This document shows, piece after piece, positions 14 to 18,631 of a stretch of 64,000 bases of DNA. Made by a program: the position numbers and the translations under genes. The notes beneath the pieces were generated by a model that did not search any database, had not been told where the DNA came from, and saw only the letters and a program-made list of their open reading frames with translations. The stretch's first letter is position 1. Every line of letters starts with the position of its first letter. This stretch comes from Azoarcus sp. CIB (GTDB lineage Bacteria > Pseudomonadota > Gammaproteobacteria > Burkholderiales > Rhodocyclaceae), in the NCBI RefSeq assembly GCF_001190925.1, contig NZ_CP011072.1:3038001-3102000 (forward strand), given 5' to 3'.

Positions 14-48
14 CTCAGTTGCCCCTCAAGTGGCCCCTCAGTTGCCCC
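14..48. repeat. Short tandem direct repeat at the end of the secretion operon
   Basis: CTCAGTTGCCCC occurs at 14-25 and 37-48 with a diverged middle copy (CTCAAGTGGCCC) between them. The last copy contains the stop codon of the sigma-54 activator gene. On the plus strand, 31-46 also reads TGGCCCCTCAGTTGCC, which matches a -24/-12 element (GG-N10-GC). It points antisense into the activator gene and may be chance. Confidence 0.4.
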
Positions 49-1339
49 CCTCGCCGCGCGAGGAATTCCCTTTGCGGAAGTCCTTCGAGTGGATGCCGTG
101 CTTCTTCAACAGCGTCTGCAGGTGCGACCGGTTCATGTCGCAGCGGCGGGCCAGTTCGGCCACCGTTCCGCCCACCTGCTCCAGCCCGCGTTCCAGGAAC
201 TGCTTCTCGGCTTCGTCGCTCGCGACCCGCTTGGCGTCGCTGAGCGAGATCGCTTCCGCCGCGGCGGCCACGCCGGCCACGGGGGCAGTCGCCGCTGGCG
301 ACACCGCGGGCGCGGGCCGGATGTCGGGCGGCAGGTGTTCGAGATCGGCCGTTTCGCCGGCGAGACAGGACAGGCGATAGATCAGATTGCGCAGCTCGCG
401 GATGTTGCCGGGATAGCGGTAGCGCAGCAGGAAGTCGCGCAAGCGCGACGACATCTTGATCGGCCGGCGCTTGAGCGCTTCCGCCGCCTCATCGCCGAAG
501 AAGGCGAACAGCAGCGGGATCTCGTCCCGGCGCTCGCGCAGCGGCGGCAGGGTCAGGTGGATGACGCTGAGGCGATAGAACAGGTCCTCGCGGAAGGTCC
601 CCTCCTCGCTCAGGCGCCGCAGGTTGCGGTTGGTCGCGGCGACGATGCGCGCGTCCACCGCGATCGGCTCGTCGGAACCGACGCGCTGGATCTCGTGCGA
701 TTCCAGCACCCGCAACAGCTTCACCTGCCCGGGCAACGGCAGTTCGCCGATCTCGTCGAGGAAGATGGTGCCGGTGTGGGCGCTCTCGAACTTGCCCTTG
801 CGGTCGCTGACGGCGCCCGTGAATGCGCCCTTGCGGTGGCCGAAGAGTTCGGATTCCAGCAGGTTTTCCGGAATTGCGCCGCAGTTCACCGAGATGTAGG
901 GCTTGTCCGGGCGCGAACCGTTGGCGTGGATGACCTTCGCCATCAACTCCTTGCCGGTGCCGCTCTCACCGTCGATCAGCACGGGCAGGTCGGTCGGCGC
1001 GGCCTTCTCGGCGATCTCCAGGGCTTCGAGGAGCTGCGGATTGTCGCCGAACGCGCCTTCGAATACGAAGCTGCGATCGAGCAAGGCGCGCCGCCGCGCA
1101 CCGGGCGCCAGATCCGCGGGCGCAGCCTCGGTCGCCGCCGCCTGCACGAAGCGTTCCTTGTGCGACAGCTGCATGACCTCGTCGCGCAGCGTGTTCGCCT
1201 GGCGCAGCAGTTTCTCGATCTCGGGCCGCGCAAGGGTCGACGCCCAGCGCAGCGTCGAGCGCAGGATCTCGATCTTCTCCAGCAGTCCCGCGTAGGAGAT
1301 CGCCGAACTGCCGCGCGAACCGGGGGCCAGGATCTTCAT
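38..1339 (-). CDS. Sigma-54-dependent transcriptional activator (AAA+ and Fis-type HTH, no receiver domain)
   Basis: This 433-residue protein is a bacterial enhancer-binding protein that would use ATP hydrolysis to open sigma-54 promoters. Visible motifs are Walker A GESGTGKE, the sigma-54 contact loop GAFTGA, a Walker B region ending FLDEIGELPLPGQ, the sensor stretch VAATNRNL, and a C-terminal Fis-like helix-turn-helix (VAELARRCDMNRSHLQTLLKK). The first about 85 residues are helical and contain no receiver, GAF or PAS domain that I recognise, so the input signal is unknown. The start at 1339 overlaps the stop of the upstream exporter gene as ATGA, which implies translational coupling. Being last in the peptide-export operon, it is the obvious candidate activator of the -24/-12 promoter at 13745-13760; that link is inference. 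Confidence 0.93.
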   Translation of the reverse strand: MKILAPGSRGSSAISYAGLLEKIEILRSTLRWASTLARPEIEKLLRQANTLRDEVMQLSHKERFVQAAATEAAPADLAPGARRRALLDRSFVFEGAFGDNPQLLEALEIAEKAAPTDLPVLIDGESGTGKELMAKVIHANGSRPDKPYISVNCGAIPENLLESELFGHRKGAFTGAVSDRKGKFESAHTGTIFLDEIGELPLPGQVKLLRVLESHEIQRVGSDEPIAVDARIVAATNRNLRRLSEEGTFREDLFYRLSVIHLTLPPLRERRDEIPLLFAFFGDEAAEALKRRPIKMSSRLRDFLLRYRYPGNIRELRNLIYRLSCLAGETADLEHLPPDIRPAPAVSPAATAPVAGVAAAAEAISLSDAKRVASDEAEKQFLERGLEQVGGTVAELARRCDMNRSHLQTLLKKHGIHSKDFRKGNSSRGEGGN

Positions 1340-4300
1340 GCCGCCGCCAGCTGTTTCTGCACCAGTTGGTAATACATGCCCTGGCGCGCGACAAGCTCGT
1401 CGTGCCGCCCCTGCTCGACGATTGCCCCTTCGTACAGCACCAGGATCTTGTCGGCGCGCATGATCGTCGACAGCCGGTGCGCGATGATCACCGCGGTGCG
1501 CCCCTTGAGGATCTCCTGCATGTTGCCGATGATGTTGCTTTCCGACTGGGTATCCAGGGCGGACGTCGCCTCGTCGAACACCAGCAGGCGGGGATCGTGG
1601 TACAGCGCGCGGGCGATGCACAGGCGCTGGATCTGCCCGCCCGAGAGCCCCATCCCGCGCTCGCCGACGATCTGCTCGTAGCCCAGCGGCAGCTTGCGGA
1701 TGAAGGCATGCGCATCGGCCATCTTCGCCACTTCCTCGATGCGCCGGCGGTCCGGGGTCTCGTCACCGCTGGCGATGTTCTCGGCAATGGTCCCCGAGAA
1801 CAGCAGGTTGCTCTGCATCACGTAGCCGACCTGGGCGCGGTAGTACTCCTTGTCGATCACGCTCATGTCGTAGCCGTCGACCACGATGCGCCCGTCCGAC
1901 GGCGGGTAGAAACCGACCAGCAGCTTCGCCAGGGTCGTCTTGCCCGAGCCGCTGCGGCCGACGATGGCGATCAGTTCGCCCGGCTTGATGTCGAAGCTGA
2001 TGTTCTCCAGCACGTAGGCCGTTTCGTTGCCGCCGTAGCGGAAATACACGCCTTCGAGGCTGATCTCGCCCTTCAGGTCGGGCAGCACGACGCGCGAGGC
2101 GACGTCCCCGGGACGCTGTTCGGGCTCGATGTCGAGCACGTCGCCGAGGCGCTCCATCGCAACCGCCGCGTCATTGACCTGGCTCCACAGCGCAACAAGG
2201 CCCATGAGTGGCGCCAGCACGCTGCCCATCATCGCGTTGAAGGCCATCAGCTGGCCGACCGTGAGTTCGTGCGCAAGGACCTGATTGGCGCCGACCCACA
2301 GGATCGTGATCGTGGTCGCCGAGTTGAGCAGCTGACTGACGAAGCCCACCCACACGTTGAACATCTTCGCCCGGTACTGCACCGCGAGCGCCTTGGCGTA
2401 TTTCTTCTCCCACTTCAGGCGCACCGGGCGTTCGATGCCCATGCCCTTGATCGTCTCGACCCCGCCGAGCGCCTCCATCAGGAAGGCTTGCGCTTCGGTC
2501 GAGGCGCTGAACATTTCCCGCGCGTAGTTCTTGACCTTGGGCGTGACGACCACCGTCAGCACCATGATCGGGATGACGAAGGCGATCAGCAGCAGCGTCA
2601 TCTTCACGTTGTAGAGGAACAGGATCGTGAAGTAGATGAACACCATCAGCAGGTTCAGCACCGTCGTGACCGTCGACTCGGTGAGGAAGGCGCGGATCGT
2701 CTGGTTTTCCTGGAAGCGCGCGAGGATGTCGCCGGTCTTGCGCTTGGCGAAGAAGGAGAACGGCAGCGACATCGTGTGCTTGAAGAACTGCGACATCATC
2801 GCGAAGTCCATGTTGCGCACCATGAAGTTCGCGAGAAACGCGCGGATCGTCGACATGAGGTGCGTCGACAGGTTGGTGATGATCAGCCCGGCGATCAGCA
2901 GGTGCAGCAGGCTCACGTTCTCATGCACGATCACGCCGTCGAGGATGTTCTGGATGATGAGCGGCGGCACGATGCCCAGCACCTGGATCACGAAGGTCGC
3001 CATCACCAGGTGGGCGAGGATCTTCTTGTAGGGGCGCAGGTAGCCGACGAAGCGAATCCACGGCGAGCGCGCCGCCGCCATCTGCACGAGGTTCTGTCCG
3101 GGGCTGAACAGCAGGCAGGTGCCGCTCCAGCCGCGCTCGAAGTCCTCGACGGCCATCTGCCGGAAGCCGAGCGCCGGATCGGCGACCCACACCTGCTTCT
3201 TCGATACGCCGTAGACGACGATGTAGTGGTAACCCTCCCAGTGCGCGATGAAGGGCAGCTCGAAGCCCTGCAGCGCGTCGAAGGTGCACTGCACGCCGCG
3301 CGTCGTGAAGCCGAGCGACTCGCCCGCGCGCGCGAGGCTCTCCAGCGTCGCGCCCTGCGTCGTGACGTTGGCGAGTTCGCGCAGCTTGCCCAGCGTCATC
3401 GGAATGTCGAAGTGGCGGCAGATCATCGCCAGGCAGGCGGCGCCGCAGTCCATCTCCTCGGCCTGCTCGACCAGCGGGAAGCGGCGGATCACCCGCTCGC
3501 CCATCTCCGGTTTCGACTGCAGGTCGAGCATGACCTTCAGCTTGCGTCGGTCCGCGAGCTTCTTCTGGCGCTCCAGCTCGCGTTCGACGAAGCGGATGCG
3601 CTCCTCCAGCACCTCGCGCAGCTTCGGGTTGCGCTCCAGGATCAGGTGCACCGATTTCTCCGGCACGACCAGCAGCGTCGTGTCGGTCGTCGCGATGACG
3701 GAGGCCATCTGCTCCTGACGCATCATGCAGGCCTTCTCGCCGAAGATCTCGCCGTGGCCCAGCGTCGCAAGCACGTATTCGTTGCCCTGCTCGCTGCGCA
3801 CGACGCGCACTTCGCCGTGGCGCACCACGTACAGGCGGCGGTCCTCGCGCCCGTCCTGCTTCAGGATCTCCTTGCCCGCGGCGACGCGCTTGACGCCGAC
3901 GCTGCGCACGAGCTCCTCGAGTTCCTTCTTGTCGACCTTGCCGCGCAGGTCGAAGAGCCGCGCGACCACGCCGCCCGCGGACCCGATCGCGACGTAGCTG
4001 GTGATGAAGGCCAGCGCGGCGGGGTTCTGCGCGATGATCGGTTCGATCGCCTTGCGCGGCACCAGCAGCAGCTCGGTCTTGGCCGAGGCGCGTGCCGAGA
4101 ATTCGTGGCGGTACTCGCGCAACATGGCCATCTCGGCGACGACCTCGCCCGTCTTGCGCACGCCGAGGCTCACTTCCTTGCCGTGCTCGTCGGCGAAGAC
4201 GCGCACCGAGCCGGAACGGATCACGAACACGCCCTCGGCCGCCTCGCCCGCGTTGCACACCGTCTCGCCGAAGGCCAGGAAGCGCGACTGGCACTGCTCG

Positions 4301-4407
4301 GCAAGCCGTTCGAGCTCGTCGCGCGTGAAGGGCGACAGCAGCTCGACGGACGCCAGGAAGTCGGCCAGCGATTCGGTTTGCGGGGGCGTTTTCGGGGGAG
4401 CGTCCAT
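1336..4407 (-). CDS. Peptidase-containing ABC exporter with two N-terminal cyclic-nucleotide-binding domains (HetC-like)
   Basis: This 1023-residue inner-membrane exporter would cleave and export double-glycine-leader peptides. Two cNMP-binding-like domains occupy about residues 20-145 and 165-275. In the second, the FGE motif is present (222-224) but the usual phosphate-binding Arg is not obvious. A C39 peptidase follows (about 305-435) with Gln315, Cys321 (MDCGAACLA), His394 and Asp410, so the catalytic set looks intact. The membrane domain spans about 455-760. The nucleotide-binding domain has Walker A GRSGSGKTT (817-825), signature LSGGQ (about 921) and Walker B LLVFDE (941-946). The architecture matches cyanobacterial HetC-type exporters. 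It lies 20 bp after the parvulin-like gene and overlaps the activator gene. Its likely substrates are the three GG peptides at 12716-13672. Confidence 0.94.
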   Translation of the reverse strand: MDAPPKTPPQTESLADFLASVELLSPFTRDELERLAEQCQSRFLAFGETVCNAGEAAEGVFVIRSGSVRVFADEHGKEVSLGVRKTGEVVAEMAMLREYRHEFSARASAKTELLLVPRKAIEPIIAQNPAALAFITSYVAIGSAGGVVARLFDLRGKVDKKELEELVRSVGVKRVAAGKEILKQDGREDRRLYVVRHGEVRVVRSEQGNEYVLATLGHGEIFGEKACMMRQEQMASVIATTDTTLLVVPEKSVHLILERNPKLREVLEERIRFVERELERQKKLADRRKLKVMLDLQSKPEMGERVIRRFPLVEQAEEMDCGAACLAMICRHFDIPMTLGKLRELANVTTQGATLESLARAGESLGFTTRGVQCTFDALQGFELPFIAHWEGYHYIVVYGVSKKQVWVADPALGFRQMAVEDFERGWSGTCLLFSPGQNLVQMAAARSPWIRFVGYLRPYKKILAHLVMATFVIQVLGIVPPLIIQNILDGVIVHENVSLLHLLIAGLIITNLSTHLMSTIRAFLANFMVRNMDFAMMSQFFKHTMSLPFSFFAKRKTGDILARFQENQTIRAFLTESTVTTVLNLLMVFIYFTILFLYNVKMTLLLIAFVIPIMVLTVVVTPKVKNYAREMFSASTEAQAFLMEALGGVETIKGMGIERPVRLKWEKKYAKALAVQYRAKMFNVWVGFVSQLLNSATTITILWVGANQVLAHELTVGQLMAFNAMMGSVLAPLMGLVALWSQVNDAAVAMERLGDVLDIEPEQRPGDVASRVVLPDLKGEISLEGVYFRYGGNETAYVLENISFDIKPGELIAIVGRSGSGKTTLAKLLVGFYPPSDGRIVVDGYDMSVIDKEYYRAQVGYVMQSNLLFSGTIAENIASGDETPDRRRIEEVAKMADAHAFIRKLPLGYEQIVGERGMGLSGGQIQRLCIARALYHDPRLLVFDEATSALDTQSESNIIGNMQEILKGRTAVIIAHRLSTIMRADKILVLYEGAIVEQGRHDELVARQGMYYQLVQKQLAAA

Positions 4408-4427: not shown

Positions 4428-5180
4428 TTAACGCACTTCGATGACGTGTTCCTGCGCCCGCACCGCCAGCCAGGCGTCGCGCAGCAGGCGCCGCACCTCG
4501 GCCGCGGTGTCGGCGTCGAGGCGTGCCGGGTTCTTCGCGTTCACGAGGAAGATCTCGAAGAACGAGCGGTCGGATGCGGCGAAGGGTCCGAGCAGGTCGC
4601 CGACGTTGGCGTTGAAGACCTTGGCCTCGATCTCGGTCTTGAGCGAGCCGCGCAACACCGTGCCGATGTAGCCGCCCTGCTCGCGGGTGTCGGCGATCGA
4701 GTGTTCGCGCGCCAACTCGCCGAAGCTGTCGGGGTCGTCCGCCAGCAGCGACATCATCTCCTTCGCCTGGCCTTCGTTCTCGAGCACGATATGGCTCACC
4801 TCGATGCTGTCAAAGCGCGGCGAATTGAGCTGGAAGAATTCCTCCACCGCCCGGTCGCTGCAGACGTGCTGCATCATCTTTTCCTGGTACAGGCCGTCGA
4901 TGATGAATTCCTCGAACTCGTCGAGGCTCACCCCCAGCGCGTCGAGGTAGCGATTCATGTCGGCCGCGCGGTGCAGGTTCAGCACGCGGCGGTACTGGTC
5001 CGCACGCTCCTGGATTTCCTCGGCCGACACCGGAATCCCCTGCTTCTTCGCCGCGTGCACGGCGACCCGGTCACGCACGATCTCGTCGACGAGACCCTCG
5101 AATCGTCCCGTCAGCTTCAGGATCCGCACGAATTCCTCGGTGCCGATGTTTTCATCATCGATTCGCACGATCGCCGTCAT
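4428..5180 (-). CDS. Parvulin-like (PpiC/SurA type) peptidyl-prolyl isomerase or chaperone without signal peptide
   Basis: The 250-residue product has a SurA-like N-terminal helical region (about 1-120) and a C-terminal parvulin-type domain (about 125-225). Recognisable elements are IEVSHIVL, FGELAREHSIADTREQGGYIG and the FNANVGDLLGPF stretch. Unlike SurA or PpiD there is no signal peptide or membrane anchor; the protein starts MTAIVRIDDENIG, so it should act in the cytoplasm. It sits between the HlyD adaptor (33 bp) and the exporter (20 bp), with a clear AAGGAG ribosome site. It may keep the precursor peptides unfolded or deliver them to the C39 exporter (inference). PPIase-like genes next to peptidase-containing exporters are seen in other GG-peptide clusters, but the function here is unproven. 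Confidence 0.85.
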   Translation of the reverse strand: MTAIVRIDDENIGTEEFVRILKLTGRFEGLVDEIVRDRVAVHAAKKQGIPVSAEEIQERADQYRRVLNLHRAADMNRYLDALGVSLDEFEEFIIDGLYQEKMMQHVCSDRAVEEFFQLNSPRFDSIEVSHIVLENEGQAKEMMSLLADDPDSFGELAREHSIADTREQGGYIGTVLRGSLKTEIEAKVFNANVGDLLGPFAASDRSFFEIFLVNAKNPARLDADTAAEVRRLLRDAWLAVRAQEHVIEVR

Positions 5181-5213: not shown

Positions 5214-6602
5214 TCAACCGCTGATCTGGCGGAACGGGTCCAGCGCGAGGTCGATCACGCGACGCTCGCGCACCACGATCTCGGCGGTGGCCGTCATGCC
5301 GTAGCGGACCGGGTACTTGGTGTCCGAGACGAGGTAGTGATCGCGGGCGAGCGTCACGTGGCCCTCGTAGACCGGCTCCTTGGTCTTCGCCGACGCCGCC
5401 GTCGCGGGCGAGATGAATTCGAGCGTGCCGTCGATGAGGCCGTAGCGCTGGTACGGGAAGGCATTGAACTTCAGCTTCACCGGCAAGCCTTCGCGCAGGA
5501 AGGCGCGGTCGCGTTCGGCGATCTCCATCTTGATCACCGCGCGCGCGTCCTTCGGCGCGATGCCGCCGAGCGGCGTGTTCGCCTGGATCTTGTCGCCGGG
5601 CTGGGTCGAGCTGACATCGGTGACGACGCCGTCGACCGGCGCGAGGATCAGCAGGAAGTTGTCCTTGTCGATGTTCTCGAAACGGATCCGCTCGGCTGCC
5701 TGCGCCGCGAGGCGCGCCGTCTGCAATTGCAGCCGCAGCTTGTCCTCCTCCTTCGCGACTTCGCGCGAGGCCGCGTCATGCTCGATCCGCAGCCGCGTCA
5801 CTTCCTGATCGCTGCTTTCGAGTTCGGCGCTCGCCTTCGCGGTCTCCTGGCTCAAGCGGAAGTCCAGTTCGCCGAGCCGGGATTGCGCGACGCGCAAGGC
5901 ATTTTCCGCCGCGAGCCAGGCGGTCTTCTTCGTTTCGACCTGCAGCTGCGACACGCCCCCGCCGCCGGGCAGCGCGAACAGGCTCTGGTACTTGTCGAAC
6001 TCCAGCTTCGTCGCGTCGCGCGTCCGGCGCGCGTTGTCGAGCTCGCTGCGCGCCTGCTGCAGCTGCGCCTTCTGGCCCTCGGCGAGTTTGGTCGTGCCTT
6101 CGGCGATGCGCTTCTCATGCACGTGCAGGGCCGCCTCGATCTGCTGCTTCAACGCTTCGGCCTTGCGCTCGAGCAGCGCCTTGCGCTCGGGAAAGCGTTT
6201 CCATTCGCGCTCGGCATCCTCGAGCTTCAATTGCGCCTCCAGCGCATGCGTCGCAGCCTCGACCGCGCCACGGGCGTTGAGCCGCGCCAGCACGTCGCCC
6301 TTCGACACCGGCTGCCCCGGCTCCATGTAGACGTCCGCCAGCTCGCCGTCGATGGGCGCGTAGACGCGGCGGACTTCCGACTCGGGCGCAAGAATGCCGG
6401 GCGCCGTCACGATCACGTCGGCATGCCCGACGAAGGACCAGATCAGGGTGGCCACCACCAGGCCCAGCATCACGACGACGAGCGCCAGGCTCAGTCGCCC
6501 CGGCTCCGCCGTGAGGATCTCGATGCCCTCGGCGCTGTGATCCTCCAGGGCCTCGGTCAGCGGCCTGAGGTGACTTCCACTGAGGTGACCTTCATTCTTC
6601 AT
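5214..6602 (-). CDS. HlyD-family membrane fusion protein of a type I secretion system
   Basis: The 462-residue protein has a short cytoplasmic N-terminus, one transmembrane helix at about residues 38-58 and a biotinyl-lipoyl half-domain (ILAPESEVRRVYAPIDGELADVY region). A long alpha-hairpin coiled coil follows (about 115-300, rich in E, K, R, A and Q), then a beta-barrel and the second lipoyl half. This is the standard layout of the periplasmic adaptor joining an ABC exporter to a TolC-like channel. Its start overlaps the end of the FHA-membrane protein gene by 11 bp. The N-terminal repeat GHLSGSHL comes from a tandem CTGAGGTGAC duplication near 6565-6590. It should pair with the exporter at 1336-4407 and the outer-membrane factor at 9182-10588. 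Confidence 0.93.
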   Translation of the reverse strand: MKNEGHLSGSHLRPLTEALEDHSAEGIEILTAEPGRLSLALVVVMLGLVVATLIWSFVGHADVIVTAPGILAPESEVRRVYAPIDGELADVYMEPGQPVSKGDVLARLNARGAVEAATHALEAQLKLEDAEREWKRFPERKALLERKAEALKQQIEAALHVHEKRIAEGTTKLAEGQKAQLQQARSELDNARRTRDATKLEFDKYQSLFALPGGGGVSQLQVETKKTAWLAAENALRVAQSRLGELDFRLSQETAKASAELESSDQEVTRLRIEHDAASREVAKEEDKLRLQLQTARLAAQAAERIRFENIDKDNFLLILAPVDGVVTDVSSTQPGDKIQANTPLGGIAPKDARAVIKMEIAERDRAFLREGLPVKLKFNAFPYQRYGLIDGTLEFISPATAASAKTKEPVYEGHVTLARDHYLVSDTKYPVRYGMTATAEIVVRERRVIDLALDPFRQISG

Positions 6603-9072
6603 CGCTCCGACCTCCGATCAGCGCGAGCTTGGCCTTCAGCAAGCCGGGCTCCAGCACCATGTGCAGATCCCGCAACGAGCGGCGCTGCAGTTCGGTCTCC
6701 GTATCGATCTCGTCCGCGAGCGCGCTCCACTTCGCGGCGTCTGCGGCGTTCAGCAGCTGGTAGATGCGCATCGCCTGCTGCATGTCGGCGTGCGCTTCGG
6801 ACAGCAGGCGGGCCTGCGAGCGGAAGGCCCCCGAGATGCCGGATTCGAGCCGGTGCTCGCCGCCGATGCCGCCGTTGCTCCGGTACTGGCGCCACATCCC
6901 TTGCGCCCGGTTCAGCAGTTCGTTCGCCCGGCCCAGCGCCTTTTCGCGATAGACGCGCACGTCCGCTTCGGTCGCGCGGACGAACCAGCTGTCTTCGTCG
7001 GTATCGAGTGAACTGTAGAACGCCAGCAGCCGCTCGTCGTATCCCTTGCTGCCGCGCACCTGCTGCAGCTCCGTGAACTGCTGCTGCACGGCCTTGCGGT
7101 GCTCGAGCTGGCGTGCTGCCACGTCGGCCCACGGTCCGGTCGAGACCTGCTGCAGGGCAGCGAACGTCTGGTCCGCCTTGCCTTCACGCCATGCGGCGGA
7201 GGCCGCGCGATAGTGGCGCAGGAGATCCGCCGATGGCAGCCGGCTCGCCCCGAGCTTCGCGAACTGCGCCTGGAAGGGCGGTGTCGCGAACTTCAGCTTG
7301 TCGAGGACGGCGACGAGGGGCCCCAGCTTGCCCGCGCTCATTGCGCCATCGAGCGCGACGTACTGGCGCAAGTCCTCGCGCAGGGCGTCGATCCCAGCGA
7401 GTCGCGGGTACTTGTCGGCGTATTCGTTCAACACCGCGTCCAGCGCCTCCGGCCGGTCCTGCGCCAGTTCCTCCGTGATGCTCGCGTTCAGGCGCTCGAT
7501 CGCGGCGAGATAGACCGATTCGTCCCCTTCCAGCCTGCGCAGGTGGGTCAACGCTTCAGCATAGACGTCCTTGAACGCCGGCACGTGTGCCCCGATCAGG
7601 GCGAGCGCCCGCTGGTGCCCCTTGGCGTCGTCGTTCCAGCGCTGCAACAGGCCCCTGATCCGCTCCTCATCCGCATACATGCGGATCGGGGCAGCTGCGC
7701 CGCGCCGTTCACGCACGAACTGTTCGAGGGCCGCGATCCATTCGAGCTCACCGAGCAGTGCCTGCGCATCGGTATTGTGGCGAGCGCCCGTCTTCATGTC
7801 GGCGAGCACGGCCGTCGCCCGGTCGAAGCCGCCAGCGTGCAGGCTCTCGATCCACTCGGGGAGCTTCGCCTTCAACAAGGCCTCGGTGCCGAGTGCCTCC
7901 AGCGCCGCGTCGTCCGGGTTCCGGGCCAGGTATTCATCGGCGGCGGCGAGCGCCTGCGCATAGGCGCCATCGGCGATGAGATCCCTGATTTCCCGCTCGG
8001 TGGAGCCGATGAAATACACCCCGACCGCGATCGCCACGAGCAGCACCAGCCCGGGGATCCCCCAGCGCAGCGCACGCTGCTTCGCCGCGCGATCGTCACC
8101 CGCAAAGGCCTTGCCCAATTCGCGCACCAGGATCGCGGCCCGGCTGCGCTCGCGCTCCACCACCTGCGGTGGCGCTTCCTCGGCGCGCGCGTCGTCGTTG
8201 TTGAGTTCGTCCTGCGGGGCACCGGGATCGTTGCAGAAAATATCGAGGAAGGAGTCGGCTGCCGCGACGAAGGTCGTGCGGTCGGCATTGGCATGGGGAT
8301 CGGCGGCGACGGCGTCGACAGGGCTGAACGTGGTCAGCGTCGGATCGGTCTCGGGTTCGCGCTGCAGGCTGACCGTGTACACGAAATGACTGCCGGCAAA
8401 TCCCAGCACCGTGCCGTCGCGCAGTTCGACGGCATGCTCGTCGAGCCGCGTTCCGTCCACGAAGGTTCCGTTCGTACTGCCCAGGTCCTCGACGAAGGGC
8501 GCATTGCTCTTCAGGAAGATATGGGCATGGCGCCGCGACACATAATTCACCTGATGGGGGCTCGCCTCCTTGTAGCGCGCGAACACCTCGTCGGCCTTGC
8601 TGATCAGGAAGGGGAAACGGGCGATGACGATGGGCTGGAGCCCGAGGTCGTCGCGCACGGGCGTGAGCGTCAGGCTGAGCAGCGCGCCCGCACGCCGCGG
8701 TTTCGTCGTGCGCGGCGCGATCTTGACGCGATACGTCAGCGTTCCGCCCAGGCCGATCTCGTCGCGGTCGTACAGCCTGCACGGCTTCTCCTGCACGGCA
8801 ACGCCGTTCACGCTCGTGCCGTTCTTGCTGCCCAGGTCGGCGACGTAAAGCGCGCCGCCCTCCCAGAAGATCCGCGCATGGCGACGCGACAGCTCGGCGA
8901 CGAGCTCGCAGTCATACGACGCGAACGGCGACTCGTTGCGCCCGATCGCGAACAGGTTCTCCTCGATGAGGATCTCGCCCAGTTCCGGATGCGATTTGGG
9001 CTTGAGCCGAACATCGAAGTCCTGTTCGGCCGTTGCCTGCATCGCGGCGGAAAAGGCTTCGTCAGCGGTCAT
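6592..9072 (-). CDS. Membrane protein with two FHA domains and a large helical C-terminal region
   Basis: This 826-residue protein carries two FHA phospho-threonine-binding domains in the cytoplasmic part. FHA1 (about 22-116) has GRNES, LSRRHARI and DLGSKNGTSVNG; FHA2 (about 147-235) has VSRRHAHIF and DLGSTNGTFVDG. An acidic linker leads to one transmembrane helix at about 338-356. The remaining about 470 residues are predicted by eye to be helical and repeat-rich (TPR-like at first), presumably periplasmic. I do not recognise a catalytic domain. It lies upstream of and overlaps the hlyD-like gene. The likely role is a scaffold that senses kinase output and contacts the secretion machinery across the membrane. 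That is inference from FHA proteins in other secretion systems. Confidence 0.85.
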   Translation of the reverse strand: MTADEAFSAAMQATAEQDFDVRLKPKSHPELGEILIEENLFAIGRNESPFASYDCELVAELSRRHARIFWEGGALYVADLGSKNGTSVNGVAVQEKPCRLYDRDEIGLGGTLTYRVKIAPRTTKPRRAGALLSLTLTPVRDDLGLQPIVIARFPFLISKADEVFARYKEASPHQVNYVSRRHAHIFLKSNAPFVEDLGSTNGTFVDGTRLDEHAVELRDGTVLGFAGSHFVYTVSLQREPETDPTLTTFSPVDAVAADPHANADRTTFVAAADSFLDIFCNDPGAPQDELNNDDARAEEAPPQVVERERSRAAILVRELGKAFAGDDRAAKQRALRWGIPGLVLLVAIAVGVYFIGSTEREIRDLIADGAYAQALAAADEYLARNPDDAALEALGTEALLKAKLPEWIESLHAGGFDRATAVLADMKTGARHNTDAQALLGELEWIAALEQFVRERRGAAAPIRMYADEERIRGLLQRWNDDAKGHQRALALIGAHVPAFKDVYAEALTHLRRLEGDESVYLAAIERLNASITEELAQDRPEALDAVLNEYADKYPRLAGIDALREDLRQYVALDGAMSAGKLGPLVAVLDKLKFATPPFQAQFAKLGASRLPSADLLRHYRAASAAWREGKADQTFAALQQVSTGPWADVAARQLEHRKAVQQQFTELQQVRGSKGYDERLLAFYSSLDTDEDSWFVRATEADVRVYREKALGRANELLNRAQGMWRQYRSNGGIGGEHRLESGISGAFRSQARLLSEAHADMQQAMRIYQLLNAADAAKWSALADEIDTETELQRRSLRDLHMVLEPGLLKAKLALIGGRSDEE

Positions 9073-9110: not shown

Positions 9111-9192
9111 TGTGCCTCAGTTGTGCGTCTTGCATGCGTGTCTTGCGTGCGTGTCGTGGTTAGGGCGCGCGCTTGTGTGCCTCAATTGCGCG
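9111..9192. repeat. Pair of 17-nt direct repeats flanking a GT-rich spacer
   Basis: TGTGCCTCAGTTGTGCG (9111-9127) and TGTGCCTCAATTGCGCG (9176-9192) are direct repeats with two mismatches. The second overlaps the stop codon of the outer-membrane-factor gene. Between them is a low-complexity GCGTGTCTTGCGTGCGTGTC stretch. The repeats resemble the CCTCAGTTG units at 14-48, at the other end of the operon. Function unknown. Confidence 0.4.
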
Positions 9193-10588
9193 CATTCGCC
9201 ACCCCCACCGTTGGCCAGCCACCGCCCAGCGCCTTGTAGAGGGTCACCGTATCGGCCAGGATCTGCTGGTGATTGGCGAGCAACGCAAGTTGCGCCGCCA
9301 GCAGGGTGCGTTCGGTCTCGAACACTTCCAGCTGCGATACCACGCCTTCCTTGAGCTGCCGTTCGGTCTGGGTCGCGACGACCTGCAGCTGGTCGATCGG
9401 CTGCTGCAATTCGGTTCTCTGCTGCTTGTGCGCATCGAGATTCACCAGCGCGTTCTCCACTTCCTCGAACGCGCCGATCACGACACGCTGGTAATCGTGC
9501 TCCACGACCTTGATCTGGGCCTCGCTGGTCTTCACGCGTGCCTTCACGCTCGGGTCCAGCAGCGGGATGTTGATGCTCGGCAGGAAGCCGAAGGTAAAGG
9601 ACTTCAGCAGGTCGCCGAGGGCGAAACTGGAGGTGCCGCCGCGCCCGGTCAGGCTGATCGACGGAAGCTGCGCGAGCTTGGCCTGCCCAACCAGGTTGTG
9701 CGCTTGAAGCACACGGAACTCCGCCGCAACGATGTCGGGCCGGCGCTCGAGCAACAAGGAAGGAAGGCCGGCCGGCACCGCCGGCAGCTGGACGCGGCCC
9801 TGCAGGCGCCCGACCGGCACCCTGAATTCGCCCGCCGGCACCCCGAGCAGGGTCGCGAGCGCGTTGCCGGCCAACTCGCGCGAGCGACGCAGATCCAGCA
9901 GATCGTGGGTCAGCTTGTTGATCTCGGCGCGCTGGCGCAGCACCTGCGTATTGGGCACGAGCCCGTGCTTGTGCATCGCCTCGTAGGTGGCGAGGATTTC
10001 CCGGTTCTTGGCGAGCGCGCGCTGCTGCTGGTCGATCTGCTCGTCCAGTTGCAGAATCTGAAAATAGGTCGTCGATACGTTGGCGACGAGCGTCAGGTAG
10101 CCGGCCCGCCAGTCGGCTTCGGACGCACGGTACTCGGCAGTCTGCGCCTGAACGCCCTTCTCCACCTTGCCCCAGATGTCGATTTCCCAGTTGAGCTGGG
10201 TGCCGAGGTTGTACTGCGTCACGGATTTCTGGCCGGTGCTTTTTTCGAAGCTCGCGCCGGCGCCGAGGTCCAGCGTCGGCAGCGCGCCGGCACGCGCCTC
10301 GCCGATCTGTGCGTTGGCGACCTGGATACGCGCGGCGAGGATCTTGACGTCGAAGTTCCCCGCAATCGCCTTGTTCACCAACTCGTCGAGATAGGGGTCA
10401 CGGAACTCCCGCCACCAGTCGGGCGCGATCGTGTCGGCCGCCGACACCGGCGGGCTCGACCACGCAGCCTTCGCGGGCGTGTCGGGACGGGCGTACTCGG
10501 TGATGCCCACATTGGCGCAACCGCCCGCGAGCACTGTGCTCACGCAGACAAGCAGCAAACGGGCGGCAATCAGGTTAATAGGTCTCAT
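9182..10588 (-). CDS. NodT/TolC-family outer-membrane efflux lipoprotein
   Basis: The protein of 468 residues is an outer-membrane factor of the NodT (RND/T1SS outer-membrane lipoprotein) family, forming the exit duct of a tripartite exporter. It has a signal peptide with a lipobox-like end (STVLAGGC) and two outer-membrane-efflux repeats (about 60-245 and 265-455). Family hallmarks include WWREFRDPYLDELV, NWEIDIWGKV, LLERRPDIVAAEF and the PSINIPLLD stretch. I chose the ATG at 10588 because GGAG lies about 8 nt upstream and the signal peptide begins there; an ATG 30 nt upstream is possible. Its place inside the peptide-export operon supports pairing with the HlyD-type protein and the C39 exporter. 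NodT proteins also serve RND pumps, but none is nearby. Confidence 0.92.
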   Translation of the reverse strand: MRPINLIAARLLLVCVSTVLAGGCANVGITEYARPDTPAKAAWSSPPVSAADTIAPDWWREFRDPYLDELVNKAIAGNFDVKILAARIQVANAQIGEARAGALPTLDLGAGASFEKSTGQKSVTQYNLGTQLNWEIDIWGKVEKGVQAQTAEYRASEADWRAGYLTLVANVSTTYFQILQLDEQIDQQQRALAKNREILATYEAMHKHGLVPNTQVLRQRAEINKLTHDLLDLRRSRELAGNALATLLGVPAGEFRVPVGRLQGRVQLPAVPAGLPSLLLERRPDIVAAEFRVLQAHNLVGQAKLAQLPSISLTGRGGTSSFALGDLLKSFTFGFLPSINIPLLDPSVKARVKTSEAQIKVVEHDYQRVVIGAFEEVENALVNLDAHKQQRTELQQPIDQLQVVATQTERQLKEGVVSQLEVFETERTLLAAQLALLANHQQILADTVTLYKALGGGWPTVGVANARN

Positions 10589-10661
10589 TCCACTTTCTCC
10601 CGCCGCCCGAAGTGCCAACCGTTCGACGACGACGCGTCTTGTGCTTTCGCGGACACGCGGA

Positions 10662-12587
10662 CTAGGCCGCGGCCCACACCTTCGATTCGACGAATACCCT
10701 GAAGAGCCGCGGATCGATGTGTCCCGCCCGACACTCCGCCTCCAGCAGATTCAGCGCCTCCGGAACCGGCACCGCCTTCTTGTAGGGACGGTCCCCCGCC
10801 GTCAGCGCGTCGTAGATGTCGCAGATCGTCAGAATGCGCGTCTGGACGCTGATCTGCCCGCCGCGCAGTCCCATCGGATAGCCCGATCCGTCCAGCTTCT
10901 CGTGGTGCCCGTGCGCGATGGCCGGCACCCCGGCCAGGTCATGCGTCCAAGGGATCAGGATCAGGAACGAATAGGTATCGGCGACGTGTGACTCGATCTG
11001 CGTGCGCTCCTCGGCGGTGAGACAGCCCTTCGATACACCGAGCGCCAAGTGCTCGTGCTGCTGCAACAGGGGCACGGCGGCACCGTCCGGTTCTCTGTAG
11101 GTATAGTCGAGAATTGCGTCGAGCTCGTGCGGGGCTTCGGTGTACGAGATCGCCGGCTCGTTGGCACGGCGAATGGCCGCGAGAAATTCGTCCAGGCGCC
11201 CGAACTCCGCGGCCAATTCCTCCTCGACCCGGCGCTTCTCCTCGCGAAACGCCGCAATGCCCAGCTCGTGCTCGCACTGCCGCTCCACCAGCTGTCGATA
11301 CGCCTGCCGCTCCAGGCACGCGCACGCATACTTGAAGCGCTGCTCGAGCAGTCGCATGTCGGCATGGTGCAGTTTCTTTTCCTTGCGCAATACGTGCTCG
11401 CGCACGCCTACCTTGCCGAAGTCGTGCAGCAAGGCGGCATAGCGGATCTCGCGCAGCTGGTCCTTGCTGAACACGACCTGCCGCAGTTCCGGCGCGTCGG
11501 CGCGATCCACCGCCAGGGCCAGGCCTTCCGCATAATGCGCGACGCGGAAGGAATGCCCCGCCGTGACCGGATCGCGCTCCTCGATCGCCTGCACCGAGGC
11601 GCGGACGAAGCCTTCCAGCAGGCGCTCGATATCCGAATACAGCTGGAAATTCTTCAGAGCGACCGCCGCTTCCGCGCACACCCCGCTCAGCATCTCGAGG
11701 TCCTGCCCCTTGAAGGCGTAGGGATCCGACGAGGTGTCGACCTGGATCAGACCCAGCACTTCACCCTCCAGCAGGAGCGGCACGCACATCACGCTGCGGA
11801 TCGCCTGCTGGACGATCGATTCCTGGGAACCGAAGCGTCGATCGGCCAGCGTGTCGACCGACAGGATCGACAATTTCTTCTCCAGCACCTCATCGACGAT
11901 GGTGCGCGAAAGCCGCAGCTTGTCGGCATCCTCGATCGGCCCGTCGCGCCGTCGCGCCGCCACCTGCACCGGCGCCTCGTCGCGGTTCTTCCGCAGCAGG
12001 ATGAAGGCCCGTTCGGCCAGCGGGAACAGGTCGAAGATCAGGTTCATGATCTTCTCGGTCAGGGTCTCGCTGTTCGTCACCGCGCCCACGGCGATGCCGA
12101 CCTGCGCCATCGCGTGCAGCTTGCGGATCGTGAGCTGCACGTCGCCTTGCGCCTGCGGTGTTGGCGCCGCGAGCGGGCGGGAATAGAGGGTCGCGTCGAC
12201 CGTCTGCTTGATCACCGTCGGCTTGCTCTCGGGCGGTGGCGCAAGCAGGGAATGGAACACGATGTGCGCCGCCGCGACGGAAAACTCGTCGCCATCGCGC
12301 AGCGGATGCCAGGCGCCCGGCTGCAGGCGCTTGCCCGAGACAAAGGTGCCGTTGAACGAGTGGAGATCCTCGACGAAATACGCGCCGTCACGCAGGCGGA
12401 TGCGCGCATGGCGGCGACTGACGGTGTGCTCCGGAATGCACAGGAAGCGGTCCGAGGCCAGCGAGTCCTGCGGATCGCGCCCGATGAGCACCTCATCGTG
12501 AAGGGGGAACACCTTGCCCGCTGCGGTCACTTCCAGGTAAGCCATCACTGGCGTCGCGGCCCCGGGAACGGATCTTGAGTTTTGCAT
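10662..12587 (-). CDS. FHA-GAF-HD-GYP protein (putative c-di-GMP phosphodiesterase)
   Basis: The 641-residue protein combines an FHA domain (about 32-112; LIGRDPQDS, VSRRHARI, SFNGTFVSG), a GAF domain (about 150-315) and an HD-GYP domain (about 330-635). The HD dyad is in LLHDFGK (387-392) and the GYP signature is HHEKLDGSGYP (561-571), so c-di-GMP hydrolysis is plausible. Unusually, about 120 residues (roughly 403-530), charged and coiled-coil-like, separate the HD and GYP halves. There is no membrane segment. The start at 12587 follows a strong GGGAGGAGAGGG ribosome site. It is the first gene after the peptide array and probably couples kinase output and c-di-GMP level to secretion (inference). 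Confidence 0.9.
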   Translation of the reverse strand: MQNSRSVPGAATPVMAYLEVTAAGKVFPLHDEVLIGRDPQDSLASDRFLCIPEHTVSRRHARIRLRDGAYFVEDLHSFNGTFVSGKRLQPGAWHPLRDGDEFSVAAAHIVFHSLLAPPPESKPTVIKQTVDATLYSRPLAAPTPQAQGDVQLTIRKLHAMAQVGIAVGAVTNSETLTEKIMNLIFDLFPLAERAFILLRKNRDEAPVQVAARRRDGPIEDADKLRLSRTIVDEVLEKKLSILSVDTLADRRFGSQESIVQQAIRSVMCVPLLLEGEVLGLIQVDTSSDPYAFKGQDLEMLSGVCAEAAVALKNFQLYSDIERLLEGFVRASVQAIEERDPVTAGHSFRVAHYAEGLALAVDRADAPELRQVVFSKDQLREIRYAALLHDFGKVGVREHVLRKEKKLHHADMRLLEQRFKYACACLERQAYRQLVERQCEHELGIAAFREEKRRVEEELAAEFGRLDEFLAAIRRANEPAISYTEAPHELDAILDYTYREPDGAAVPLLQQHEHLALGVSKGCLTAEERTQIESHVADTYSFLILIPWTHDLAGVPAIAHGHHEKLDGSGYPMGLRGGQISVQTRILTICDIYDALTAGDRPYKKAVPVPEALNLLEAECRAGHIDPRLFRVFVESKVWAAA

Positions 12588-12715
12588 CCCCTCTCCTCCC
12601 CCATGCACCGGACGGGCAATCCGATCTAAATTTGACATGACGCAGGAAGACCGGTTCCGGTTGGCATGCGACGCTCGCGGCGGCGGCCGTCTGCCCCCGC
12701 CGCGGGCCCGGGGAC

Positions 12716-12994: not shown

Positions 12995-13030
12995 GATGAT
13001 TCTCCTTGGGGGTCGGGATCAGGGCATTAC

Positions 13031-13053
13031 CGCGGAGGCAGGCTGCCTCCGCG
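13031..13053. terminator. Strong hairpin between peptide genes 2 and 1 (no U tract)
   Basis: CGCGGAGGCA and TGCCTCCGCG form a perfect 10-bp inverted repeat with a 3-nt loop in the short spacer after the stop of the second peptide gene. No T run follows on either strand, so it is more likely an attenuator or mRNA-stabilising or processing hairpin than a classical terminator. It could set the relative yield of upstream peptide mRNA and downstream genes (inference). Confidence 0.5.
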
Positions 13054-13066
13054 CAGGGGTGCAGGA

Positions 13067-13345: not shown

Positions 13346-13378
13346 GATGATTCTCCTTGGGGGTCGGGATCAGGCGGT

Positions 13379-13672
13379 TCAGAAGCTGACGTGGTTGTTG
13401 ATGTTGGCGTTCTGCGTCGCGGTGACCGGCACCGACGGGGAGGCGATGCCGCCCAGCACCGCGACGTTGTTGCCGACGTTGGTCACCACGCTCTGGCCCT
13501 GGTTGATCAACTGCGCGGCGTTGAACGAGGCGTTGCTGGTCGAGGTATCGACGTATCCGCCCCAGTAGAAGGGCGTGTAGTACATGTCGTGCATGCCGCC
13601 GCGCACTGCGCTCATGGCCTCGCAGCCCAGTTCTTCGGTCATCGGCAGGTCGTTGATGGTCAGGGTTTTCAT
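13379..13672 (-). CDS. Double-glycine leader peptide, copy 3 (promoter-proximal)
   Basis: The first gene after the -24/-12 promoter encodes 97 residues. The leader is MKTLTINDLPMTEELGCEAM followed by SAVRGG, differing from the other copies by a Cys and an Ala. The mature peptide of 71 residues starts MHDMYYTPFYWGGYVDTS, has a longer aromatic-rich N-terminus, and then shares the core INQGQSVVTNVGNNVAVLGG and the C-terminal INNHVSF. The conserved core and variable N-terminus suggest one structural fold with diversified surfaces. A ribosome site (AAGGAG) precedes the ATG. The untranslated leader from the predicted transcription start is about 60 nt. Confidence 0.9.
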   Translation of the reverse strand: MKTLTINDLPMTEELGCEAMSAVRGGMHDMYYTPFYWGGYVDTSTSNASFNAAQLINQGQSVVTNVGNNVAVLGGIASPSVPVTATQNANINNHVSF

Positions 13673-13744: not shown

Positions 13745-13760
13745 CGCAGGGACCGTGCCA
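13745..13760 (-). promoter_or_regulatory. Sigma-54 (-24/-12) promoter of the GG-peptide operon
   Basis: On the minus strand 13760-13745 reads TGGCACGGTCCCTGCG. It matches the TGGCACG-N4-TTGC consensus in the whole -24 block and in the -12 TGC, with exact GG-N10-GC spacing. The predicted start of transcription is about 13733, roughly 60 nt before the first peptide ATG. A sigma-54 activator is encoded at the end of the same operon. Confidence 0.75.
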
Positions 13761-13781
13761 GAGTCGCACCCGCGCTCAGCC

Positions 13782-13800
13782 AACAATTCAAGCCATTGTT
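13782..13800. promoter_or_regulatory. Inverted repeat AACAAT-N7-ATTGTT upstream of the sigma-54 promoter
   Basis: A perfect 6-bp inverted repeat with a 7-nt spacer lies about 22-40 bp upstream of the -24 element on the peptide side. It could bind the Fis-type HTH of the operon-encoded activator or another dimeric regulator. The position is closer than most activator sites of sigma-54 promoters, so the assignment is tentative. Confidence 0.4.
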
Positions 13801-14177
13801 AACTTTATGTTTTTCTCAAAATAGCGCAAAACCGAGTGGATCTGATGACGCCACCTTGACGTCGACTGATGGGTGGCGACCAACAGCTCGCCCGAACACT
13901 GTCTGCCGGAGGGCAACACCTTCCCCAAGAACCCTTCGCGAGCGTGCCTGCGCCCCTGCGCCCGAACACGGTGCACGCCCGCCAAGCGCATGGATATGGG
14001 CTATATTTTTCTTGAAAGGTCCGATTGGGGAATTTTGCGCAGTCGCGCTCCCTGGCCGAATCGGCACCTCGATGCGCGCCCATCGATCAACCCGCAACAG
14101 CGCCTGGTACATCCTCGCAGGCCGGACCGAGCGAGAACGTGACACCCCGAGACTCGTGGCCAACAGAGGGGAAGCGG

Positions 14178-16247
14178 ATGGCTACTCTTTCGCACGCGAT
14201 TCACGCCTTTCAGGCCGGGGGTTTGTCCAGCAATGAGTTCTTGGCGCAAGTCGACCGCGTTCTGTCGGCTGACAAGACCGACTACACCCAGCTCATGGAA
14301 GTCCTCAGCGAGGAGCACACCAAGTTTCCGCTGCCGCCGGAGGTGTACGCGGAAGTTCACCGCCGTATCGAGCACCTCGCGGAACCCGAACCGCAGAAGG
14401 GTGCCGCTGCCGCCGACCAGACCCGCATGCTCATCAATCCCAGCGCCATCTTTCCGCCGGGAGATGCAGCTTCGCCCTCCCCGCCGGACGGCGAACCGGA
14501 GCGGCTCAAGGGAGTCGGCGAGACGATCAAGGGACGCTTCCGCCTCGAGGAATGCATCGGCTTCGGCGGCATGGGCACGGTTTACAAGGCACTCGACCTG
14601 CGCAAACTGGAGGCCGCCGACCGCAACCCCTACATCGCCATCAAGATCCTGAACGTCCAGTTCCGTGGCCATCCGAAGTCGCTGATCGCCCTGCAGCGCG
14701 AAGCCAAGAAGGCGCAGACGCTCGCGCACCCGAACATCGTCACGGTGTATGACTTCGACCGCGATGGGCCGATGGTGTACCTGACGATGGAGTACCTGTC
14801 GGGGCAACCGCTGAGTCGCCTGCTGCACGCGCCGGATTTTCGCGGCATGCCTTACGCGGACGCGCTGCGAATCTTCACCGGCATGGCGAATGCGCTGTCC
14901 TATGCGCACGAACGCGGCTTCGTGCATTGCGACTTCAAGCCCGCCAATGTCTTCCTGACCGACAAGGGCCAGGTCAAGATCATCGACTTTGGCATCGCGC
15001 GCGTCTTCCGCCGCTCCGAGGAGGAAGTCGAAGCGACGGTTTTCGATGCGGGCAGCCTGGGTGGCCTGACGCCGGCCTATGCCAGCCCCGAGATCCTCGA
15101 ACACGTCGAACCCGACCCGCGCGATGACGTTTACGCCCTTGCCTGCATCACCTACGAATTGCTGACCGGCACGCATCCGTTCGGACGCCTGCCGGCGACA
15201 CAGGCGCGCAATGCCGGTCTGCGGCCGCAGCGCCCGAAAAACCTCCCCACCTTGCAGTGGCGGGCGCTCAAGAGCGCACTATCGTTCGATCGCGACGCAC
15301 GAACCCCCAGCGTGGCCCAGTTCCTCCACGGGATGAAAGGCGAACGCCAGCTCGCGATGCCCCTGGCGCTTGGCGTCGCAGGCGTCGCGACGGCGGCACT
15401 GCTGGCGGTCGCAGTGATCTCGTACTGGGAACCGTCCGAGCGCCCCGAACCGCTGCCCGCCAGCCCCGATCGCTCTGCGGCGGTCCCTGCGCCGACGCCG
15501 CAGCAGGAAGCACCGCCGCCCGCGGCACCCGCCCAGCCCGCGGCACCTGCGACACCGCAGCCTCGTCCCGTCCTCTCGCTTGGGGCGGTCACCCCCGTGC
15601 TCGCGCAGGTGCCCTGCTCCGCCCTGACTGCGTCGGTCAGCGGACCGACGCTGCAGGTGCAGGGCTACGTCCCCGAGCGTTTCGGCATCGCCCGCTTCAA
15701 GGAATCCCTGAGTGCCATCCCCGGCGTGACGACCCTGAAGACGGACGTGCAGCAGGTGAGCGACGACAAATGCAGCGTCATCGAAACGCTGGCCCCCTAC
15801 TGGGTCAGGAACCGGCAAGCCGGACGGCTCGCCTCGATTCAGATGCGCGGCACCGGCACGGACCTGACGGAGGGCGATTCCCTCATCGTCGACGTCTCGA
15901 CGCCCGGATACGAGTCCTACGTGCATGTCGACTATCACGTCCTCGACGGCAGCGTCGTCCACCTCGTACCGAGCCGACGGGCCAGGGCCCATCAGGCGCC
16001 GCCCAACTACTCGGCGACCATCGGGACCCTTGCGGGGTGGACGATTTCGAAGCCGTTCGGCTCCGAACTGATCGCGCTGCTGGTCACCCCGGTACCGCTT
16101 TTCGACACCCTGCGGCCCGAATCGGAATCGAGAGGGGACTACCTGCGTGCGGTCGAATTGCGACTGCGCGAGATCGCGGCGAAATACGGACAGGATCGCA
16201 TCGCCGTGGATCTGGTCCAGATCACCACGCACGCGCGGGGACGGTGA
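14178..16247 (+). CDS. Membrane-anchored Ser/Thr protein kinase with periplasmic DUF4384-like domain
   Basis: The 689-residue protein has a bacterial eukaryote-type kinase domain at about 120-385. It shows a Gly-rich loop IGFGGMGTVYKA, the ATP-binding Lys156 (IAIK), a catalytic loop HCDFKPAN (250-257, with Cys replacing the usual Arg of HRD) and DFG (270-272). One transmembrane helix lies at about 395-416, then a Pro/Ala-rich linker and a C-terminal domain resembling DUF4384 (GDSLIVDVSTPGYESYVHVD). An N-terminal Thr in DQTRML (82) resembles an FHA-binding phosphosite. I chose the ATG at 14178, which follows GAGGGGAAG; upstream in-frame starts lack a ribosome site. Divergent from the peptide operon, it is the likely source of the phospho-threonine read by the FHA proteins (inference). 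Confidence 0.9.
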   Translation: MATLSHAIHAFQAGGLSSNEFLAQVDRVLSADKTDYTQLMEVLSEEHTKFPLPPEVYAEVHRRIEHLAEPEPQKGAAAADQTRMLINPSAIFPPGDAASPSPPDGEPERLKGVGETIKGRFRLEECIGFGGMGTVYKALDLRKLEAADRNPYIAIKILNVQFRGHPKSLIALQREAKKAQTLAHPNIVTVYDFDRDGPMVYLTMEYLSGQPLSRLLHAPDFRGMPYADALRIFTGMANALSYAHERGFVHCDFKPANVFLTDKGQVKIIDFGIARVFRRSEEEVEATVFDAGSLGGLTPAYASPEILEHVEPDPRDDVYALACITYELLTGTHPFGRLPATQARNAGLRPQRPKNLPTLQWRALKSALSFDRDARTPSVAQFLHGMKGERQLAMPLALGVAGVATAALLAVAVISYWEPSERPEPLPASPDRSAAVPAPTPQQEAPPPAAPAQPAAPATPQPRPVLSLGAVTPVLAQVPCSALTASVSGPTLQVQGYVPERFGIARFKESLSAIPGVTTLKTDVQQVSDDKCSVIETLAPYWVRNRQAGRLASIQMRGTGTDLTEGDSLIVDVSTPGYESYVHVDYHVLDGSVVHLVPSRRARAHQAPPNYSATIGTLAGWTISKPFGSELIALLVTPVPLFDTLRPESESRGDYLRAVELRLREIAAKYGQDRIAVDLVQITTHARGR

Positions 16248-16271
16248 CAGCCCCGTCCGCGCGCCCCGGCG

Positions 16272-17649: not shown

Positions 17650-17705
17650 TCCTGCGATCGCGTCCGTGTATGTGCATCGGATTCATGGCAGGGAGGGCGC
17701 GCAGC

Positions 17706-18621: not shown

Positions 18622-18631
18622 GGGATTCTCC

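Follow-up and report, generated by a model that had tools for sequence, protein, structure and literature searches.

That a sigma-54 operon carries the gene of its own activator is a known principle. The enhancer-binding proteins PspF and HrpRS have no cis-regulatory domain and are controlled by trans-acting proteins, and activators of sigma-54 promoters bind about 100-150 bp upstream, with IHF aiding the formation of the loop (excerpt of PMC7057263). The promoter described here is built like those of the NtrC/NifA type as presented in that excerpt, with upstream dyads at about 100-150 bp, an IHF-like site in between and a -24/-12 element (PMC7057263). The activator encoded at the same locus resembles PspF and HrpR/HrpS, again as excerpted, in that an AAA+ domain carrying GAFTGA is joined to a DNA-binding part and a cis-acting sensor domain is not recognised, for which reason control in trans is to be expected and is, by analogy, probable (PMC7057263). 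It differs from them in having about 90 extra N-terminal residues, with two modelled helices, and in that its gene ends a peptide-exporter operon. The dyad, TGTTGG-N7-CCAACA (i.e., TGT-N13-ACA), differs from the sites of NtrC and of NifA, the latter being TGT-N10-ACA.

Peptidase-containing ABC exporters of double-glycine peptides work with HlyD and TolC-type partners. The present locus shares with this class a C39 domain with invariant Q, C, H and D, an HlyD protein, an outer-membrane channel and peptides with GG leaders. Unlike the class, it has two N-terminal cNMP-binding domains on the exporter, control of the sigma-54 type, PpiC, FHA, GAF and HD proteins or domains within the operon, and a linked Ser/Thr kinase and PP2C phosphatase. 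A leader-peptidase ABC exporter together with an HlyD-like protein is also found in NHLP bacteriocin systems; this assignment was rejected, as the scores fall under the curated cut-offs (564 against 853 bits for TIGR03796, 83 against 156 bits for TIGR03794). Among the matches listed, the titles and abstract beginnings of open-licence papers yielded nothing on this promoter, activator or peptide family, and the words bacteriocin, HlyD and FHA do not occur in the excerpt of a sigma-54 regulon survey (PMC3162934). As far as the literature searched goes, the regulon is undescribed. Its promoter, enhancer sites, activator and targets make it testable, and the exporter that it concerns has peptides without any Pfam match (six were scanned); it also offers a handle for finding the conditions of peptide production.

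The peptide-export locus

The window, i.e., the whole 64,000-nucleotide stretch of DNA that was analysed, carries on its minus strand ten genes which lead from three peptides to the activator, with a kinase gene diverging from them (Table 1). The sequence itself establishes which elements are present, that they are conserved and in what order the genes stand. Our overall reading, which we consider likely, is that peptides and exporter constitute an RpoN-dependent regulon that would be driven by its own activator, with feedback.

Table 1. Features of the peptide-export locus, in window coordinates
Feature	Position	Strand	Basis
-24/-12 (sigma-54 type) promoter element TGGCACGGTCCCTGCG, 16-mer	13745..13760	minus	GG-N10-GC exact; T at 13760, last G at 13745
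IHF-like site TAACAATGGCTTG, between dyads and promoter	13789..13801	minus	one mismatch to WATCAANNNNTTR
Proximal upstream dyad TGTTGGTCGCCACCCATCA, putative activator-binding site	13867..13885	minus	motif score 19.0; -125 from T of TGG
Distal upstream dyad TGTTGCCCTCCGGCAGACA	13900..13918	minus	motif score 14.6; -158 from T of TGG
Peptide gene 1, 97 aa, leader ending VRGG	13379..13672	minus	ORF; no Pfam or NCBIfam match
Peptide gene 2, 92 aa	13067..13345	minus	ORF; no Pfam match
Peptide gene 3, 92 aa	12716..12994	minus	ORF; no Pfam or NCBIfam match
FHA-GAF-HD protein, start codon uncertain	10662..12638	minus	PF00498, PF01590, PF13487
Outer-membrane efflux channel (NodT type)	9182..10618	minus	PF02321 x2; TIGR01845 304 bits vs cut-off 210
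Two-FHA-domain protein	6592..9072	minus	PF00498 x2
HlyD-type membrane fusion protein	5214..6602	minus	PF13437
PpiC-type peptidyl-prolyl isomerase	4428..5180	minus	PF00639; TIGR04500 78 bits, under cut-off 180
Exporter: two cNMP-binding domains, C39 leader peptidase, ABC permease/ATPase	1336..4407	minus	PF00027 x2, PF03412, PF00664, PF00005
Sigma-54 activator (bEBP): N-terminal part short and helical, AAA+ domain with GAFTGA, putative Fis-like helices at the C-terminus	38..1339	minus	PF00158; alignments
Divergent Ser/Thr protein kinase, part of locus	14178..16247	plus	PF00069 3e-42

The three peptides have the leader MKTLTINDLPMTEEL...VRGG in common. Their mature parts (12716-13672) show, when aligned, a shared Q-x-Q-N...N-x-G-N-N-x-A pattern, which to us recalls curli repeats. 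In the exporter, Q315, C321, H394 and D410, which we take to be the C39 catalytic positions, are invariant in nine aligned sequences (own included), and by its predicted domains the protein classes as a double-glycine peptide exporter (C39 ABC). It was also observed that two cNMP-binding domains precede the C39 peptidase (1336-4407), a possible second-messenger gate. The PpiC protein was considered as a TIGR04500 peptide maturation protein and this was rejected, since its score does not reach the cut-off. No convincing -24/-12 promoter was found for the kinase; the plus strand from 13761 to 14177 holds two TGG-N10-GC matches (13837 and 14026), neither of them TGG[CT]A.

The promoter element

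The first-pass annotation had proposed a sigma-54 promoter with exact GG-N10-GC spacing some 73 bp before the first peptide start codon. Position and spacing are confirmed, the strand being minus, and 72 bp separate the 3' end of TGGCACGGTCCCTGCG from the ATG of peptide gene 1 at 13672; counted from the T of TGG the distance is 88 nt, which compares with 87-94 nt in the other Aromatoleum peptide promoters. Read directly, the two boxes are TGGCAY and YTGC-like, and the -24/-12 position predicts a transcription start at about 13734. The sigma-54 consensus is YTGGCACG-N4-TTGCW, from which TGGCACGGTCCCTGCG departs at two positions (CTGC for TTGC, then G). It should be noted that the motif by itself is not significant: TGGCAY-N6-TGC occurs once in the window, against a mean of 1.67 in dinucleotide shuffles (79 of 100 shuffles had at least one), i.e., its count is that of chance. 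The significance of the promoter derives instead from the conservation of its position and of its upstream elements in relatives. Backed by the conserved -24/-12 element, the upstream dyads, IHF-like sites in a third of the promoters and an rpoN gene (one match in the genome, PF04552, 225 bits), the site is almost certainly part of a sigma-54 promoter, and its predicted polymerase is that of RpoN.

Upstream dyads and the IHF-like site

Palindromic motif discovery with 120 random seeds per width in 72 non-redundant upstream regions returned TGTTGG-N7-CCAACA with a score of 645, compared with 125-163 in five runs on shuffled sequences. Matches to it pile up around positions -160 and -127 relative to the -24 element and form a third peak around -115, and the commonest spacings of dyad pairs are 32 bp (40 pairs) and 33 bp (31 pairs). 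The two dyads of the window, TGTTGGTCGCCACCCATCA and TGTTGCCCTCCGGCAGACA, lie 33 bp apart, or about three helical turns. At least one dyad above 5.5 bits is present in all 102 promoters collected from relatives, and a pair spaced by 31-35 bp at the same threshold in 74. This pair was found in 66 of 68 promoters outside the APW-type second operons and in just 8 of the 34 promoters of second operons that begin with an APW-type peptide; in the latter, mostly from Paraburkholderia, the usual picture is a single strong dyad around -115, often accompanied by a second at about -205 to -230. As a predicted binding arrangement, the tandem pair is typical of the exporter operon and, in Aromatoleum, of the second operon as well; it is not a feature of every target.

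A dyad model trained on Burkholderiaceae only recovered the pair in 14 of 16 promoters from other groups (7 of 8 in Aromatoleum), the shuffled controls giving a mean of 0.02 and a maximum of 1. Training in the reverse direction, on the 16 non-Burkholderiaceae promoters, gave an A-tract instead of the dyad. Searched with up to three mismatches, a tandem-dyad pattern built from Aromatoleum promoters matched two places in the 5.26-Mb genome, both of them peptide operons, and the reversed control none; more divergent targets may escape a pattern of this origin. The exact TGT-N13-ACA pair was dropped as a marker across loci because it is too rare, 80 loci yielding three pairs at 31-35 bp, four at 41-45 bp and none in three other spacing ranges. 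Sites with at most one mismatch to WATCAANNNNTTR, which we take as the IHF consensus, were present on either strand in 25 of the 72 non-redundant promoters and in 4.2% of shuffles. An IHF site between enhancer and promoter is common at sigma-54 promoters without being a requirement.

Conservation among relatives

An exporter of at least 88% identity is encoded in 10 of the 17 genomes of the genus, probably Aromatoleum, own counted, and a -24/-12 element stands ahead of the orthologous operon in all ten of these Aromatoleum genomes. The wider comparison used the best 80 of 260 loci encoding a relative in the genome collection (exporter identity 78-99%), which by their titles belong to Aromatoleum, Paraburkholderia, Burkholderia sp., Caballeronia, Cupriavidus, Ralstonia, Trinickia, Noviherbaspirillum, Herbaspirillum, Paucimonas, Duganella, Massilia and an Oxalobacteraceae bin; most "Burkholderia sp." loci were counted as Paraburkholderia in the genus grouping. 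L044, L046 and L047 (copies of L054, L055 and L056) and peptide genes with fewer than 260 nt upstream were left out. Related loci share descent, and the counts are not independent.

Peptide genes in the relatives were found by a leader-pattern search. Of these genes, 102, spread over 66 of 89 loci, are preceded by the strict form TGGCAY-N6-TGC at a distance of 30-130 nt; the background is 157 sites in 3.86 Mb on both strands (88 loci), equal to 0.0041 per 100 nt. A further 37 peptide genes that were taken as first in their cluster have no strict -24/-12 element: seven were rejected because the leader pattern had matched falsely within the activator gene (L096, L101, L105, L108, L111, L114 and L117), eight lie further inside the second operon of Aromatoleum, 16 are peptide genes of Caballeronia second operons (including L085, which is titled Burkholderia sp.), and the other six are in L057, L063, L071, L112 and, twice, L131.

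Exporter and activator stand in one collinear array with the HlyD and FHA genes in 67 of the best 80 loci (of 260), and 65 of these 67 operons are headed by a composite promoter, meaning a -24/-12 element plus a dyad pair 31-35 bp apart with both dyads above 5.5 bits. The relaxed form TGGYAY-N6-TGC is found within 1.7 kb upstream in 66 of the 67. The two operons outside the 65 are those of L102, in which the search found nothing, and of L115, whose contig begins too close to the operon. Nine of the 80 loci (L058, L059, L060, L066, L067, L071, L088, L113 and L131) have the PpiC, exporter and activator genes apart and no composite promoter ahead of them, three showing a loose GG-N10-GC match within 1.2 kb without dyads; there the activator seems, from this arrangement, to lie outside the control of its own promoter. 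Four of the 80 loci are cut too near the exporter for the promoter to be judged. The 65 presumably looped and the nine unlooped loci provide a natural comparison of two wirings of the same activator.

Four Aromatoleum relatives (L048, L049, L050 and L052) were missed by the composite scan. Peptide gene 1, ahead of the FHA-GAF-HD gene, has decayed to remnants there, as read by eye, while the -24/-12 element and a distal dyad of 11.4-15.2 bits are kept and the proximal dyad is weak or absent (5.0 bits or less). We read the putative promoter of these loci as kept for the exporter and the activator. Two more distant loci were also inspected: L136 contains within 20 kb a single tandem TGT-N13-ACA pair, with 31-bp spacing and placed before a -24/-12 element and the exporter operon, and L137 has neither dyad pair nor -24/-12 element ahead of its exporter operon.

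The second peptide operon

Another peptide operon lies 2.2 kb past the left edge of the window (L043:9832-11992), facing the first and convergent with the activator gene. It comprises a near-identical peptide gene, further leader-peptide genes and a PP2C phosphatase gene (PF13672, 3.5e-11), in that order. Its promoter, CTGGCACGCCCCCTGCAA, is located 89 nt before the ATG, compared with 88 nt in the window, and two dyads occupy the same places as in the window, at -158 and -125 from the T of TGG. When CTGGCACGNNCCCTGCRATAGGAG was searched in the genome with up to three mismatches, three places were found, the two peptide operons with none and a third with three. This third match (G000:C1:4470033-4470056, L141) stands ahead of another gene, presumably for an acetone carboxylase, and has no dyad pair. 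The acetone-carboxylase-like promoter serves as a control, being predicted to be of the same promoter type with another enhancer.

The co-encoded activator

The AAA+ domain matches PF00158 with E=1.9e-69 (233 bits); in the alignments the Walker motif GESGTGKE is invariant and GAFTGA conserved, A172 being near-invariant in one of them. Residues 1-96 contain no Pfam family, which bears out the earlier description of a GAFTGA activator without a receiver. Assignment as an NtrC-class response regulator was rejected, there being no receiver and all 25 NCBIfam models listed, of 27, scoring below cut-off. The first 90 or so residues are conserved among 35 aligned sequences and include the modelled helices 16-31 and 38-69. 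The C-terminus has no Pfam HTH match; alignments to the NorR, NtrC and NifA models reach residues 411-418 and helices are predicted at 375-413. The AlphaFold models of the activator and of peptide 1 are too poor for a fold search, the mean pLDDT being 51.8 for the activator (near 80 at residues 21-50, lower beyond, with most of the AAA+ part poor) and 51.0 for the peptide. Among 274 genomes of the class, three encode the N-terminal part of the activator, and these three, of which the present genome is one, are also the ones that encode that of the exporter. Four records in a plasmid search carry the activator; the one stretch that was inspected has no annotated feature.

The co-encoded activator very probably acts at the TGGCACGGTCCCTGCG promoter, with the dyads as its putative binding sites. 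The first-pass annotation had likewise named this gene as the likely activator, and the proposal is well supported, if by circumstantial evidence: the gene follows that of the exporter in all of the best 80 loci of 260 (the L107 copy being cut by a contig end), the two proteins co-occur as above, and the dyads travel along.

Alternative explanations and operon structure

The -24/-12 match could be due to chance, with the operon using a promoter of the sigma-70 type. This would fit the motif count in the window, which is that of chance; against it, 65 of 67 collinear loci, as well as the second operon, conserve sequence, spacing and dyads, and a sigma-70 promoter scan of the window found no sigma-70-like site ahead of the peptide genes, so that we regard this explanation as scarcely credible. 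It is improbable, too, that the sigma-54 promoter is driven by another activator of the genome while the co-encoded one regulates something else. There are candidates, 24 further places in the genome matching the activator, most of them over the AAA+ part. Tandem dyads, as detected with the Aromatoleum-derived pattern, nevertheless occur in this genome at the two peptide operons only, dyads and co-encoded activator recur together across genera, and activator and exporter co-occur. The helix MNRSHLQ.LLKKHG is near invariant in two alignments and in L136, though L137, whose locus lacks the promoter, reads MNRSHVWTLLKKHE at this helix.

More weight belongs to the question of whether the promoter serves mainly the peptide genes, with exporter and activator transcribed mostly from other promoters and no real feedback. 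Positive feedback had been proposed earlier on the ground that the operon which the activator would turn on ends in the activator's own gene. The gene order fits, with the activator last, overlapping the exporter gene by 4 nt, and a composite promoter in 65 of 67 loci; the distance of 13.7 kb given for it holds for the end of the gene, its start being 12.4 kb from the promoter. The same overlap is seen in 44 of the best 80 loci (of 260), and in 77 of them the two genes either overlap or leave no more than 4 nt between the exporter stop and the activator start, the start codons in this count having been chosen by script. Gene order is, at the same time, the sole basis of the feedback proposal, and the nine loci of 80 without a composite promoter, as well as the need of basal activator for some source, speak for separate transcription. 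So does a sigma-70-like match inside the PpiC gene (10/12; 4813-4786, minus strand), which could feed exporter and activator separately; it was the only one in the scan, 1.5 being expected, a number consistent with chance. A stable hairpin after peptide gene 2 (12996-13070, z -2.28, no T-run) also counts on this side and might stabilise the peptide mRNA or damp read-through. Against separate transcription, four relatives keep the -24/-12 element and the distal dyad despite a decayed peptide gene, and in L120 and L130 the 286-301 nt from the promoter to the channel-gene match contain no recognised leader peptide. The terminator scan (8 found, 9.0 expected) found no terminator-like site between the peptide genes and the FHA-GAF-HD gene and one on the operon strand, a weak one inside that gene (12394-12381). 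On balance, an operon without real feedback is rather unlikely, and effective feedback through read-through, which would have to extend over 12 kb, is somewhat favoured.

Proposed mechanism

In the feedback reading, the -24/-12 element would serve the ten-gene peptide-export operon and hold RpoN-polymerase there in the closed state. Oligomers of the activator would bind the two 19-bp dyads of the TGTTGG-N7-CCAACA type, whose centres are 116 and 149 bp upstream of -24 and would be on the same face of the DNA; the IHF-like site between dyads and promoter may aid the loop, and the AAA+ GAFTGA ring would open the promoter. The same activator would switch on the convergent operon for peptides and PP2C phosphatase outside the window, and activation of the first operon would yield more activator. 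Its activity would be set in trans, perhaps via the kinase, the phosphatase, the FHA proteins or the exporter itself. A bolder extension, which we hold to be doubtful, is that a sensor-less activator at the end of an exporter operon makes a self-sustaining on-state in a Betaproteobacteria-wide secretion regulon whose input comes from inside the system, with the Ser/Thr kinase, the PP2C phosphatase, the FHA proteins and the cNMP-binding exporter as candidate inputs. If this were true, the cell would make peptide production depend on the condition of its own exporter, and the secreted Q/N/G-rich peptides might serve as matrix outside the cell or as signals.

Further observations in relatives

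Tandem units of promoter plus peptide gene are present in L113 (Duganella aceris, 15475-19443), most with their own -24/-12 element 78-79 nt from the ATG. Five loci (L096, L109, L110, L120 and L129, at about 15.8-17.5 kb on the plus strand) contain a further gene divergent from the second peptide operon with a -24/-12-like site ahead of it, and dyads lie between the two divergent start sites. The product has an LRAT domain in L129 (PF04970, 5.4e-24) and looks alike by eye in the other four. At L058:21998, on the plus strand (Noviherbaspirillum), a -24/-12-like site and a dyad pair were found about 240 nt before a Ser/Thr kinase gene, and this kinase may belong to the regulon in L058.
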